In this document: one piece after another, positions 13,701-19,506 of the stretch
Position numbering within the stretch: the stretch's first letter is position 1
Layout of the letters: each line of letters starts with the position of its first letter
NCBI GenBank assembly: GCA_028821605.1
Contig: JAPPFM010000029.1
Location: forward strand, 1-51,205
Direction of reading: 5' to 3'
Source of the DNA: Candidatus Poribacteria bacterium
Lineage (GTDB): Bacteria > Poribacteria > WGA-4E > WGA-3G
Length of the DNA: 51,205 bases
Notes under the pieces: generated by a model
The model's input: only the letters and a program-made list of their open reading frames with translations
What the model was told of the DNA's origin: nothing
The model's database searches: none
Translations under genes and position numbers: made by a program

Positions 13701-13729
13701 TTGATATACGAATTGAAATGTGGTATAAT
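13701..13729 (+). promoter_or_regulatory. strong sigma-70-type promoter of the rpsF operon
   Basis: TTGATA at 13701-13706 and TATAAT at 13724-13729 are separated by exactly 17 bases. The promoter lies about 150 bases before the rpsF start, leaving a long structured leader. The rest of 13546-13700 holds only low-complexity CTGATGA/AACTGAAAACTGA sequence of the leader-repeat type. Confidence 0.75.
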
Positions 13730-13757
13730 TTATAAATAAAATTAACTTAACATAATT

Positions 13758-13853
13758 CCATCTAATTTGTAATTGCGCTTTTGGTGCGCGTGCGTCAGAT
13801 GGGGTTCACTTAATTAATCTCTGCTCCCTGCTTTTATTGCAATAGCAGTGGAG
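13758..13853 (+). promoter_or_regulatory. structured rpsF leader, candidate S6:S18 autoregulatory RNA
   Basis: Two stem-loops lie between the promoter and rpsF. One is closed by CCATCT/AGATGG (13758-13802) with an inner GCGC stem. The other pairs CTCC-CTGCT with AGCAG-GGAG (13824-13853) and is followed by CAGTCCG. In many bacteria the S6:S18 complex represses this operon by binding an rpsF leader containing a CCG bulge. The CCG at 13862-13864 is suggestive, but I cannot fit the full motif by eye. Confidence 0.35.
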
Positions 13854-13881
13854 CCATCAGTCCGAAGAGAGGCATGAAAAT

Positions 13882-14352
13882 TTGAAACCTTATGAACTGC
13901 TGCTTATCATCACGCCTGACCACGATGAAAACGAAGCAGAGGCTCTTACGAATCAAGTAAAGAGCATCATTGAAAACGGTGGGACTCTCCTAAAAGTTGA
14001 TCCGTGGGGAAAGAAGCGACTCGCCTATCCGATCCGGAAACGGAGTGAAGGCTATTATGTGCTCTACATTTTTGAGAGTGCACCGAGTTTTGTCGCCGAA
14101 CTGAACCAATCCTTGCATGTCATTGAAGCGATTTTGCGCTATATGGTCGTCCAATACGAGGATGATATTGAAAAGTTAAAAGCGGAATTCGCCAGCAAGA
14201 CAGTCGAAGATAAGGAATCGACACCAGATGAGGAACCCGCATCGGATGAAGGATCAACACCGAGTGAAGATTCGACATCGGATGATGATACAGCGACTGA
14301 AGATACAACAGATGATGATGCAGAGGCTGAAGGTACAACAGAATCTGCCTAA
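13882..14352 (+). CDS. rpsF: 30S ribosomal protein S6 with long acidic tail
   Basis: Residues 1-100 are a standard S6, starting (M)KPYELLLIITPDHDE with GGTLLKVDPWGKKRLAYPI, KRSEGYYVLYIF and VIEAILRYMVV. It binds S18 on the 30S platform. The start is TTG at 13882, preceded by GAGAGG, and homology begins right there. The protein is 156 residues. The last 50 or so are almost only Asp, Glu, Ser and Thr, far beyond the common S6 length; E. coli adds glutamates to S6 after translation, whereas here acidity is encoded. It is the first gene of the rpsF-ssb-rpsR-rplI-dnaB operon. Confidence 0.95.
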   Translation: MKPYELLLIITPDHDENEAEALTNQVKSIIENGGTLLKVDPWGKKRLAYPIRKRSEGYYVLYIFESAPSFVAELNQSLHVIEAILRYMVVQYEDDIEKLKAEFASKTVEDKESTPDEEPASDEGSTPSEDSTSDDDTATEDTTDDDAEAEGTTESA

Positions 14353-14436: not shown

Positions 14437-14913
14437 ATGGCAAGTTACAACAAGGTCATCCTAATGGGCAATTTGACCCGCGACCCCGAAATGAAGTACA
14501 TTCCGAGTGGGAGTGCCGTTACAAATTTTGGACTCGCTGTGAATGAGCGATACACAGACCGGCAAACGGGTGAGCAGAAAGAGAATACCTGCTTTGTTGA
14601 GATTGAGGCATGGGGCAGGCAAGCCGAAGTGGCCAATGAGTACTTAAGCAAAGGGCGACCTGTCTTCATTGAGGGTGCTCTCAAGTTTGATTCTTGGGAA
14701 ACTGAGGACGGCAGTAAAAGGAGCAGACTCTCGGTTCGCGTCTTTCGGCTTCAATTAATGGGCGGCAGGCGTGATGAAGATGAAATGGGTGGTGGTTACG
14801 CGGATGCCCAACCTGCAGCGGCACCAACACAGTCCGCTTCTTATGAAGATGCGCCTGCAGCACCTGAACCGAGTAGCGCGCCTTCCGCAACAGAAGACGA
14901 CATCCCGTTTTGA
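14437..14913 (+). CDS. ssb: single-stranded DNA-binding protein
   Basis: This 158-residue SSB begins ASYNKVILMGNLTRDPEMKY, with the OB-fold core up to about residue 108 (AVNERYTDRQTG, FVEIEAWGRQAEV, YLSKGRPVFIEG). A Gly/Pro/Ala-rich linker follows, and it ends in the conserved acidic tip EDDIPF used to recruit repair and replication proteins. Length and order are typical. AAGAGGAG precedes the ATG. It lies between rpsF and the group II intron in the rpsF operon. Confidence 0.96.
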   Translation: MASYNKVILMGNLTRDPEMKYIPSGSAVTNFGLAVNERYTDRQTGEQKENTCFVEIEAWGRQAEVANEYLSKGRPVFIEGALKFDSWETEDGSKRSRLSVRVFRLQLMGGRRDEDEMGGGYADAQPAAAPTQSASYEDAPAAPEPSSAPSATEDDIPF

Positions 14914-15423
14914 GCGTTCTAACAAGCGGTAGCGGAATGTCAGTGAAAACCTGACTCGGTGAACCTAACACCGCATATCTCACCCTAACTGCTTCACTGA
15001 AAACGGTGTCGTGGAAAGCAAGGGGAAATGACGCATGTATGAGGATAGAGCAATCTCTTAACAGAGAATCCAAAAGAGACACGTCCGATAACACTGACAA
15101 GGATAAGCGAAAGCTCAATGCAACGCAAGCCTCAAGAACGTCGATATAGATGCTCTGAAAAACTATATGCGATTGAAAGTGAAAACTTGAATGATTATTG
15201 TAGAACGTAATAATCATATTAGGCTTACCAATCGCAACGTTATGCTTCATAACGAATTGGGGTATAGTTCAATCCTAAATCAGTACTAAATGTCCGCTAC
15301 AAGGAAGTTAGAAAGAACCTAAATGGACTCACGTAGCCCACAAGGTTGAGGAGAACGTCTAAAGCACGTTCAGATACATTCTTTATCCTAAATCTAAAGT
15401 ATTTCAACTAAAAAGGTGAAATC

Positions 15424-17256
15424 GTGGATACACGCCACTTATTAGTAGATGACATATTCGGAATAGATAACATTAGAAACTGTGAAGAATATGTCCTCTC
15501 AATACAAAGACGACTGGATAAAGCGGTTGCTGATGATGACACCAAAGGTATTCGTGAAACCTTTGACCTCTTGGCTAAAAGGTCAATGGCTGTAAAAATC
15601 TTGGCAATAAAACGGATTACCTCCGATAATAAAGGCAAGTATACAGCAGGAGTAGACGGAATAGCAATGCCAAAAGATGATAGGCAACTTCAGAATCAAA
15701 TGCGTCTAAAACTTTTAGACAAAATTGACATAATGAAGAAACCTAACGAAATCAAACGCATATACATTCCTAAACCCAACGGTAAGAAACGACCATTGGG
15801 AATACCTACTCTCATTGACAGAATTATCCAAGATATTCTCAGGACAGCGTTAGAACCAATAGTAGAATATCACTTCAGCAAGAACAGTTATGGCTTCAGA
15901 CCTAAGAAAAGTTGCCAAGACGCACAAGCACATCTTTTCAAGAAACTGGGACGAACTACCAGTCCCAAATATGTAGTTGAAGGAGATATAAAAGGGTGCT
16001 TTGATAATATAAATCACGAACATATTATCAACACTCTTTTAGAATGGCAAGTGCCGATATGGGCAACAGAAGTCATAATGAAAATGCTAAAATCAGATAT
16101 ATTCCACAATGGTGAAGTGTATGACAACGATACTGGGACTCCACAAGGCGGTGTAATATCACCATTACTCGCCAATGTAGCACTCACAACCCTTGACAAC
16201 TTTTGCGAAGAAAGATACGGGAATAAACAATGGAAAAACAAAAACACAGGTTTTTACGTTGTAAACCCTATCATCAGATATGCGGACGACTTCATAATCG
16301 TCAGTAAATCAGAACTTGAAGCAAAAGAAATAAAAAGGGAAATTGCCAAACACTTATCCGACAAAGTGGGACTAACCCTATCTGTAGAAAAGACAAAAAT
16401 CACTCATATAAAACATGGATTCAACTTTTTAGGATTCAACTTTAGGAAATATAAACCTAAAGGTAAAACAAGAACTCCAATAAAGAAATCCAAAAAGAGT
16501 GATTATGTCATGTTGATAGCACCTGAAAAGGATAAAGTCAAAAACCTCCTCCGAAGTATAAAGGATGTTTTAGACAAGAATAAATCTGCCACTCAAAAGG
16601 CGATAATTCATATTCTGAATCCCAAACTAAGAGGTTGGGGAATGTATTACAGATTTGTCTCAAGCAAAAAGGCATTTGCCAAAATTGACCATGAAGTTTG
16701 GCTAAAAACTTTCTGGTGGGCAAAGAGACGACATCCCAATAAATCAAAAGGTTGGGTAATTAGAAAATACTTTTCAGGTAAAGTAAAGAATCGTAAAGCA
16801 GTATTCAAGGATACTATTAGCAACTACGATATATTTACTTTAGCATATATACCTATCAAAAGACATGTCTTAGTCAACGGCAATATGAGGGTATATGACC
16901 AAAACCCTCATACTATAGAATACTGGAGGAAACGTGAATACACTAACGCATTCAAACAAATTGAAAGCGTCAGAATAGAAAAACTCTATAAAAGGCAAAA
17001 TGGTATCTGTGATTATTGTAATAAACCTATTACAACCACAGACATAAAAGAAAGAGAAATTCATATTCACCACATGAAACCTCGTTCTTTTGGTGGAAAC
17101 GAAAGTTATAGCAACCTAAAACTTCTCCACTCTGAATGCCATAGAGAACTTCACGTAAAACTCTCTCGTAAATATATGAGTGATTTAGTAGACAAAAAGG
17201 TAAAATACCTTATGTCTGAAAACATCGTCAATGTGTTGGAGAGCCGTGTGCGGTGA
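15424..17256 (+). CDS. ltrA: group II intron-encoded reverse transcriptase/maturase with HNH endonuclease
   Basis: The 610-residue protein starts at GTG 15424 with AGGTG upstream. The RT N-terminal motif KAVADDDTKGIRETFDLLAK leads to RT domains including KRPLGIPTLIDRIIQDILRT, YGFRPKKSCQDAQ, DIKGCFDNINH, GTPQGGVISPLLAN and the catalytic YADD near residues 286-289. The maturase X domain follows (residues about 370-460, with LRGWGMYYRF). The C-terminal HNH domain has CDYC, the IHIHHMKPRSFGG motif and SECHRELH (about 529-577). All key residues are present, so mobility and splicing look intact. Its last codons (ESRVR, stop) run into intron domain V. Confidence 0.93.
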   Translation: MDTRHLLVDDIFGIDNIRNCEEYVLSIQRRLDKAVADDDTKGIRETFDLLAKRSMAVKILAIKRITSDNKGKYTAGVDGIAMPKDDRQLQNQMRLKLLDKIDIMKKPNEIKRIYIPKPNGKKRPLGIPTLIDRIIQDILRTALEPIVEYHFSKNSYGFRPKKSCQDAQAHLFKKLGRTTSPKYVVEGDIKGCFDNINHEHIINTLLEWQVPIWATEVIMKMLKSDIFHNGEVYDNDTGTPQGGVISPLLANVALTTLDNFCEERYGNKQWKNKNTGFYVVNPIIRYADDFIIVSKSELEAKEIKREIAKHLSDKVGLTLSVEKTKITHIKHGFNFLGFNFRKYKPKGKTRTPIKKSKKSDYVMLIAPEKDKVKNLLRSIKDVLDKNKSATQKAIIHILNPKLRGWGMYYRFVSSKKAFAKIDHEVWLKTFWWAKRRHPNKSKGWVIRKYFSGKVKNRKAVFKDTISNYDIFTLAYIPIKRHVLVNGNMRVYDQNPHTIEYWRKREYTNAFKQIESVRIEKLYKRQNGICDYCNKPITTTDIKEREIHIHHMKPRSFGGNESYSNLKLLHSECHRELHVKLSRKYMSDLVDKKVKYLMSENIVNVLESRVR

Positions 17257-17315
17257 AAGTCGCACGCACGGTTCGGTGAGGGCTGTAGAGGGGCAACCCT
17301 CTACGGCTACTCTAC
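17241..17315 (+). ncRNA. group II intron domains V and VI
   Basis: GAGCCGTGTGCGGTGAAAGT begins the 34-base domain V hairpin (17241-17274), with the AGC catalytic triad, a GAAA tetraloop and the matching 3' arm ending ACGGTTC. Domain VI follows as the GTAGAGGG/CCCTCTAC stem with a GCAA loop. A 3' splice site after CTACTCTAC is likely. The RT ORF's TGA at 17254-17256 is inside the domain V loop region. Confidence 0.88.
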
Positions 17316-17372
17316 AAATATGGCTATCAGCCGGCGGCGATCAGTCATCAGTCTATTAATCATCGGTTCTCT

Positions 17373-17411
17373 ATCAGCAAAGACCGCGTTGACGACGCGA
17401 TCTTTGCTGAT
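17373..17411. repeat. long imperfect hairpin in the rpsR leader
   Basis: ATCAGCAAAGA...CGCGT pairs with ACGCG...TCTTTGCTGAT, giving a stem of about 16-17 base pairs with one small mismatch region. It is flanked by CAGTCATCAGTC- and TGATTGTTGATTGC-type low-complexity repeats like those before rpsF and dprA. It lies between the intron's 3' splice site and rpsR, so it would be in the spliced mRNA. Confidence 0.6.
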
Positions 17412-17462
17412 TGTTGATTGCTGACCACTGACGGCTTTACTAAAAAAAGGAACAGAACTGAT

Positions 17463-17663
17463 ATGGCATTCCGTCGTAGGCAGCGCTACCACAAAATCGA
17501 ATCTTTCGATTACAAAGATGTGGATACGCTGCGAAAATTTATTAATGAGCGTGGCAAAATTGTGAGTCGTCGGGTCACTGGACTCTCGGCGAAACAACAG
17601 CGAATGGTGACGCGTGCAGTGAAGCGCGCACGTAATATGGCACTGTTGCCGTTTACACGATAA
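17463..17663 (+). CDS. rpsR: 30S ribosomal protein S18
   Basis: The ATG at 17463 gives 66 residues beginning [19 protein letters not shown]. The S18 core follows with [20 protein letters not shown] and [20 protein letters not shown], ending LLPFTR. An in-frame upstream TTG at 17418 would add 15 non-homologous residues and is not used here. S18 pairs with S6 on the 30S platform, and S6 is encoded upstream in the same operon beyond the intron. It is slightly shorter than the common 70-80 residues because of a short N-terminus. Confidence 0.95.
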
Positions 17664-18174: not shown

Positions 18175-19506
18175 ATGCAGGTGCAAGCGATAGACACCCT
18201 TTCTGACAAGGAAGCTGAACAGGCAGTGCTTGGCGCGATGATGACTGAAAAGTCGGTAATTCCTCAGGTAATTAATCTACTCGGGCATACCTCTGACGCA
18301 TTTTTTACGACCGACCATCAGCTTATCTACGCAGCCATCCTTGCTGTATATGACCGCGTTAGCAATGCGGATCCGCTTCTTGTTGCCGATGAATTGAAAC
18401 GGACGGATCAAATCAATCGGGCGGGGGGTGCTGGCTACCTGTATGAACTCCAAGCCCCCATTGTGGAGACGGAAAGTACGGAGTTTTATGCGGATATTTT
18501 GCATGAGAAGGCGACGCGGCGTCGGTTGACCCAAGCGGGAGGGCAGATTCGTGAACTTGCTCAGGATGAAACCGTAGAACTGACAGAGATTCTCAATCAA
18601 TCGCAGGAAGCCGTCTTTGAACTCGGGCAAAATGACTCCCAACGCGGATTTCATTCTATCCGTCCGTTGATTACAACGAGTATAGATGCAATAGAAAAAC
18701 TCTACCACAAAGCCGATCGGTTCTTAGGGGTGCCGACCGGCTTTATGGATTTTGACCACATGACATCGGGGTTGCAACCGGGTAATTTTATCATCATCGC
18801 TGCGCGACCGAGTATGGGAAAAACGACCTTAGTGCTAAATATGGCACAAAACGTCGCTCTTGAACAGGAGCGTCCAGTTGCCATCTTTAGCCTTGAGATG
18901 CCTGCCCAGGATATTGTCATGCGGATGTTATCCGCGGAAGCCCGCATTGATTTTGGACGGCTCCGAACCGGTAATTTCAGTGAAGATTATTGGAGACCCT
19001 TAACCGAAGGCGCGAGTCGGTTGGCTGAAGCACCTATCCTCATTAACGATAACCGGGGACTTACCGTTCAGGGACTACGCGCCGAAGGGCGACGGTTGAA
19101 AGGCGAACACAATGATCTCGCACTCATTATCGTTGACTACCTGCAGTTGTTAAGAGGGACGGGCAGATATAACGCTCGCGAACAGGAGATTTCCGAAATT
19201 TCACGTGCTTTGAAAGTCCTCGCGTGGGAACTCAATGTTCCGATTATTGCTTGCTCGCAGTTGAGCCGTGAAGTTGAACGTCGTCCGGATAAGCAACCGC
19301 AGCTTTCAGATTTACGCGAATCCGGGGCAATTGAGCAGGATGCTGACATCGTTGCATTTTTGTACCGAGAAGATTATTACGAAGAAGAAGATGCCGGAGA
19401 TAGGGTTGAAGCGAACCTGATGATTAAGAAACAGCGTAACGGGCCAACCGGTACAGTCGTTCTTTATTTTACTAAAAAGCAGATGCGATTTGAAAATCCT
19501 AATTAG
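18175..19506 (+). CDS. dnaB: replicative DNA helicase DnaB
   Basis: DnaB is the ring helicase that unwinds DNA at the replication fork. The 443 residues have the N-terminal collar domain (EAEQAVLGAMMTE and FTTDHQLIYAAI) and the RecA-like domain with Walker A AARPSMGKTTLVLNMA near residues 209-224, Walker B LIIVDYLQLL, and ACSQLSREVERRPDKQPQLSDLRESGAIEQD, the DnaB motifs 4-5 region. No intein is present. It follows rplI closely, as in many bacteria. Confidence 0.96.
   Translation: MQVQAIDTLSDKEAEQAVLGAMMTEKSVIPQVINLLGHTSDAFFTTDHQLIYAAILAVYDRVSNADPLLVADELKRTDQINRAGGAGYLYELQAPIVETESTEFYADILHEKATRRRLTQAGGQIRELAQDETVELTEILNQSQEAVFELGQNDSQRGFHSIRPLITTSIDAIEKLYHKADRFLGVPTGFMDFDHMTSGLQPGNFIIIAARPSMGKTTLVLNMAQNVALEQERPVAIFSLEMPAQDIVMRMLSAEARIDFGRLRTGNFSEDYWRPLTEGASRLAEAPILINDNRGLTVQGLRAEGRRLKGEHNDLALIIVDYLQLLRGTGRYNAREQEISEISRALKVLAWELNVPIIACSQLSREVERRPDKQPQLSDLRESGAIEQDADIVAFLYREDYYEEEDAGDRVEANLMIKKQRNGPTGTVVLYFTKKQMRFENPN

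Follow-up and report, generated by a model that had tools for sequence, protein, structure and literature searches.

Bacterial group II introns mostly shun housekeeping genes (PMC4424553), and the preliminary description of the locus studied here had likewise stated that such introns are usually found in mobile or non-essential sites. This holds as a rule, but an exception in an essential gene has been published: in the accounts given in later papers, A.v.I1 is a group II intron located in the termination codon of Azotobacter groEL (Ferat, Le Gouar and Michel 2003, Mol Microbiol 49:1407; via PMC10012718, PMC4465626 and PMC8283771), and one of these accounts assigns the groEL intron to a subset whose 5' extremity bears a large insertion (PMC4465626).

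The locus considered here lies in a 51,205-nt stretch of DNA from a Candidatus Poribacteria bacterium (hereafter, the window). This stretch is one contig (G000:C29) of a draft genome that comprises 6.0 Mb in 60 contigs. It contains a group II intron of 2404 nt (14912..17315, + strand) that interrupts the stop codon of ssb as T^AA and is identified by the empty sites of relatives, a match to RF00029 and EBS/IBS pairings. The same flank without the intron is present in several relatives, where the empty site reads CCGTTTTAAATATGGCTATCAGCC (e.g. L050; L038 deviates upstream only), and the junctions in the window are CCGTTTT / GAGCG...CTAC / AAATATGGCTATCAGCC. Written in codons, L050 and L038 have CCG TTT TAA ATATGGCTATCAGCC, and the window has CCG TTT T/GAGCG...CTAC/AA ATATGGCTATCAGCC. 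Because these empty sites match across the junction, the boundaries of the intron can be read directly as 14912 and 17315, between T and AA of the stop codon. The preliminary description, which had proposed alignment to intron-less relatives for fixing the boundaries, was thus correct about the 3' end (17315), but the 5' end that it gave (14929) was 17 nt off and shifts to 14912. Similarly, its placement of the intron between ssb and rpsR is valid for the coding parts of the two genes, but the insertion actually lies within the ssb stop codon and not in the spacer. In the 29 relatives of the same genus, ssb is directly followed by rpsR, and the intron is present in none (0/29). Their spacers measure 82-164 nt, except for a single one of 394 nt (28 versus 1 relative). 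A search with the spanning stretch across 59 genomes of the host's family found no other genome in which the end of ssb is joined to the 5' part of the intron. The remaining ssb-rpsR spacer of 147 nt (17316..17462, + strand) matches that of intron-less relatives.

The catalytic parts of the intron are intact. Domains V (17239..17274, + strand) and VI (17278..17312, + strand) give a match to Rfam RF00029 at 17239-17315 on the + strand with 67.9 bits (gathering score 40), and together they fold with a z-score of -6.7 relative to shuffled sequences. In the fold of domain VI, the branch-point A at 17309 is bulged and lies 7 nt before the intron 3' end, within the expected 7-8 nt, and an A at -7 is kept in most of the intron copies compared. 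The 3' end, AC, fits AY, and the 5' end, GAGCG (14912..14916, + strand), is one change from GUGYG. The intron-encoded protein (IEP) has 610 aa with an RVT_N-RT-maturase(X)-HNH layout (15424..17256, + strand), starts with GTG preceded by AAAGGTG and carries, in one ORF, matches to RVT_N (PF13655), RT (RVT_1, PF00078), maturase (GIIM, PF08388) and HNH (PF01844) profiles, with TIGR04416 above its cutoff. Both the YADD and HNH motifs reported earlier are kept, and the domain V/VI match and the RT/maturase/HNH ORF, all on the + strand, bear out the description of the group II intron as complete and as lying on the operon strand. The IEP stop codon falls inside domain V (17239-17256; ..SRVR and stop from GAGAGCCGTGTGCGGTGA), as it also does in L067 and L069, so that translation to the end of the IEP would enter this catalytic domain.

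In the IEP tree, the clade to which this protein belongs has a support of 100/100 and, within the set of sequences compared, is restricted to the family of the host. Searches of the genome contigs with the IEP alignment as a query returned only relatives of <=40% identity, and a single IEP used as a query gave no match in the contigs. The same genome harbors a second group II intron, L066 (G000:C3:130611-132854), which is sister to that of the window by IEP phylogeny. Its 5' end is not recognisable, and it is probably truncated. Six short copies of ~690-720 nt (L074, L076, L078, L081, L083 and L092) have no ORF, and their ends are intact, with a matching EBS1 loop in most of them; they are presumably mobilised by the proteins of other copies.

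The recognition of the target site can be followed base by base. IBS1, the exon hexamer CGTTTT (14906..14911, + strand), ends exactly at the 5' splice site and pairs with EBS1 AGAACG (15202..15207, + strand), located in a hairpin loop (hairpin fold z -3.5), through five Watson-Crick pairs and one G-U pair, compared with 7/7 Watson-Crick EBS1-IBS1 pairs in many other copies. Exon bases -14 to -9, IBS2 CGACAT (14898..14903, + strand), fall within the SSB-tail codons and form five of six pairs with EBS2 ACGTCG (15138..15143, + strand), with one mismatch. These pairings, directly visible in the window, were also assessed for covariation in an alignment of 16 introns (that of the window and 15 from related genomes), in which the IBS1-EBS1 column reached 0.74 of full pairing and the six bases of IBS2-EBS2 reached 0.63, above the null of <=0.55 from exon permutations (n=100); three tRNA-inserted copies are poorly aligned in these columns. 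Another EBS1 candidate, AAAACGG at intron nt 89, offers seven perfect pairs and was rejected, as its position is unused in any other copy, most of which have their match in the hairpin loop at nt 264-340. Since the IBS bases are codons of the conserved SSB tail, the intron appears to be aimed at a highly conserved peptide. SSB-tail codons can therefore act as a target for intron homing, as may also happen in other bacteria.

Other members of this IEP clade interrupt tRNA genes. L070 (G017:C1:2171755-2174834) and L071 (G025:C77:46527-49910) are group II introns in tRNA-Arg(CCT), and L072 (G053:C6:7195-9531) is one in tRNA-Arg(ACG), all three inserted at an identical D-arm position. This site looks unusual, given that a 2014 review places bacterial tRNA group I and II introns at position 37/38 only (PMC4033280). 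In silico removal of the introns yields perfect tRNAs in all three genomes. No uninterrupted copy of the interrupted tRNA-Arg was found in G017, G025 or G053, and such copies are present in the other genomes searched. Judged from these assemblies, which are drafts, the tRNA-Arg introns must splice; because they occupy the only tRNA-Arg genes with the respective anticodon found in these genomes, the family would be expected to splice efficiently. If confirmed, they would represent natural cases of bacterial dependence on group II splicing.

At the ssb locus, the intron meets the coding sequence at the stop codon. The ssb gene (14437..14913, + strand; TIGR00621, 1e-44) ends in ...EDDIPF, and in the precursor its stop codon is TGA, with T from the exon and GA from the intron. 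Both stop codons are directly evident from the joined and the unjoined sequence: computed translations read TTT TGA in unspliced RNA and TTT TAA in spliced RNA, and SSB ends in EDDIPF in both. The GA is provided by the change of the second intron base (U2A): all 20 other copies with a readable 5' end from related genomes start with GTGCG, and GAGCG occurs in the copy of the window alone. With a hypothetical GTGCG start, the computed unspliced product would be EDDIPFCAF, with CAF added. The nearest IEP relative, L069, is inserted in a repeat-protein-like ORF, 2 nt ahead of its stop codon, and keeps GTGCG, so that its unspliced host product should gain a few extra residues. When 85 genomes of the phylum were searched by pattern for further introns in the ssb stop codon, the sole match, in G002, was rejected, since its TGAGCG is an ordinary stop codon at a site without an intron.

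In bacteria, translation outpaces splicing, and ribosomes arrive at the end of ssb before the intron 3' end has been transcribed. An intron-supplied stop codon would for this reason protect SSB. Partners such as DnaG contact SSB at the carboxylate of its final Phe (PMC5872125), and because the tip binds its partners in this way, a tail of three added residues should matter. We give an even chance to the reading that the otherwise invariant second base of the intron has been adapted to this site, producing a two-way stop codon with correct SSB whether the RNA is spliced or unspliced. Selection of U2A for its effect on the stop codon is suggested by a single case; as one observation in one draft assembly, the change could have arisen by drift. 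It lies outside the GUGYG consensus, and splicing might suffer from it, although the model intron ai5-gamma likewise starts with GAGCG. If the two-way stop codon is real, it would decouple host fitness from splicing and allow the intron to persist in an essential operon.

As a whole, we consider it probable that a mobile group II intron has retrohomed into the end of ssb and is nearly neutral there owing to the dual stop codon. In this scenario, EBS1 and EBS2 would have paired with the SSB-tail codons GAC GAC ATC CCG TTT T, followed by insertion between T and AA. If 14912-17315 were excised, the joined exons would again read ...CCG TTT TAA; without splicing, the first intron bases, GA instead of the usual GU, would complete UGA and give a normal SSB ending in DDIPF even from ribosomes that arrive at the junction before transcription of the intron is finished. 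The genes rpsR, rplI and dnaB would be supplied from the rpsF promoter by read-through and presumably splicing, and the insertion would hence be close to neutral for the host. For the ssb intron itself, we infer mobility and splicing in vivo, the latter on good indirect evidence. Even a group II intron that splices well endangers the protein when it lies within or close to a bacterial gene, and here splicing should hardly matter to the host.

This raises the question of whether the intron splices at all. It could have lost this ability and remain permanently in the mRNA, tolerated between the coding sequences, with U2A having made the unspliced state harmless. Such a state is suggested by U2A itself, which is off consensus and exactly what an unspliced intron requires, and by rpsR having its own ribosome-binding sequence, so that nothing needs splicing for translation. 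However, an insertion that no longer functions should decay, and this one keeps domains V and VI, the branch-point A and the EBS pairings, and its 610-aa IEP is intact; moreover, its kin in sole tRNA genes apparently must splice. We therefore regard permanent retention as unlikely, though worth keeping in mind, and return to retrohoming of an active intron as the preferred reading.

How the downstream genes are expressed depends on the organization of the operon. The preliminary description had named rpsF, ssb, rpsR, rplI and dnaB, and profile matches confirm all of them: in addition to ssb, these are rpsF (S6; 13882..14352; PF01250, 8e-28, TIGR00166), rpsR (S18; 17463..17663; PF01084), rplI (L9; 17726..18172; TIGR00158) and dnaB (18175..19506; TIGR00665), all on the + strand. 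The single strong promoter-like site of the operon is directly observed upstream of rpsF (13701..13729, + strand): TTGATA-17-TATAAT with an extended -10 (TG before the -10) and 11/12 consensus matches, its hexamers and spacing being identical in 26/26 relatives with enough upstream sequence. It is separated from rpsF by a long leader (13730-13881), which is also present in relatives, at about 125-260 nt, and is a candidate site of S6:S18 autoregulation. The rpsR and dnaB genes are sole copies, no second copy of either being found in the genome. Because the sole strong promoter precedes rpsF and rpsR and dnaB are single-copy, S18, L9 and DnaB should need transcription through the intron. The start of rpsR lies 147 nt 3' of the intron and has its own Shine-Dalgarno-like sequence, AAGGAAC; since the intron sits between coding sequences and the ssb stop codon is kept, unspliced RNA should be translatable as well. 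Thus, of the earlier claim that S18, L9 and DnaB expression hinges on reading through or splicing the intron, transcription through the intron is upheld, but dependence on splicing is not, given the kept ssb stop codon and the AAGGAAC of rpsR.

The earlier claim carried the proviso of a new downstream promoter, and the lack of + strand promoter-like sites from 16030 to rpsR removes it from that interval. More broadly, a promoter in or after the intron could serve the downstream genes and split the operon functionally in two. The intron is AT-rich and has several weak + strand consensus matches (e.g. 15601-15630 and 16001-16028); however, the 16 matches in the region represent a moderate excess over shuffled sequences (10.7, sd 3.1), the stretch from 16030 to rpsR contributes none on the + strand, and the spacer 3' of the intron is ancestral. 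We consider this arrangement improbable and retain supply from the rpsF promoter. A terminator-like sequence at 17385-17399 was rejected as a barrier, as its T run is poor and it does not belong to the intron, being also found in empty-site relatives. It falls in a region (17374-17462) with a strong hairpin, CAGCAAAGAcCGCG...CGCGaTCTTTGCTG, which recurs together with an adjoining stretch at many places in the genomes of the genus; by this recurrence, the hairpin is recognisable as a dispersed palindromic spacer repeat that predates the intron here. Finally, an artefactual joining of the intron into the ssb locus, conceivable in a draft genome of 60 contigs, is very improbable indeed, as the EBS sequences of the intron fit this very site, the junction is exact to the base, and the other copies in the same genome and in relatives are ~67% identical, which leaves no repeat to cause a misjoin.

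Compared with known systems, the closest solved relative of the IEP is the maturase reverse transcriptase of PDB 6me0 (E 6.6e-96 over residues 24-579), with the same RT-X-HNH layout; this structure is the T.el4h group IIB intron RNP of Thermosynechococcus. It is distant, and unlike it, the IEP of the ssb intron belongs to a clade seen only in the host's family among the sequences compared. A distant group II intron also interrupts ssb in the Candidatus Binatia MAG L173 (JAJDXX010000043.1, 1044-3923), but it is located mid-gene, after the OB fold and ahead of the SSB tail EDPPF, which can be made only if the intron is spliced out; with group-II-D1D4-7, it scores 119.7 bits versus 20 for the intron in the window. 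Like A.v.I1, as that intron is described in the papers cited above, the ssb intron sits in the stop codon of an essential gene, and its joined exons give TAA; unlike A.v.I1, its host gene is ssb rather than groEL, in another lineage. The large 5' insertion reported for the groEL lineage is missing from the ssb intron, whose GAGCG directly adjoins the exon, just as GTGCG does in the other copies; it thus resembles the groEL intron in its mode of action but falls outside that lineage. Therefore, a stop-codon group II intron is, on these accounts, of an already known kind, and a mobile self-splicing RNA, a genetic parasite, with a harmless seat in a vital operon is not unprecedented; the part that may be new is the two-way stop codon.
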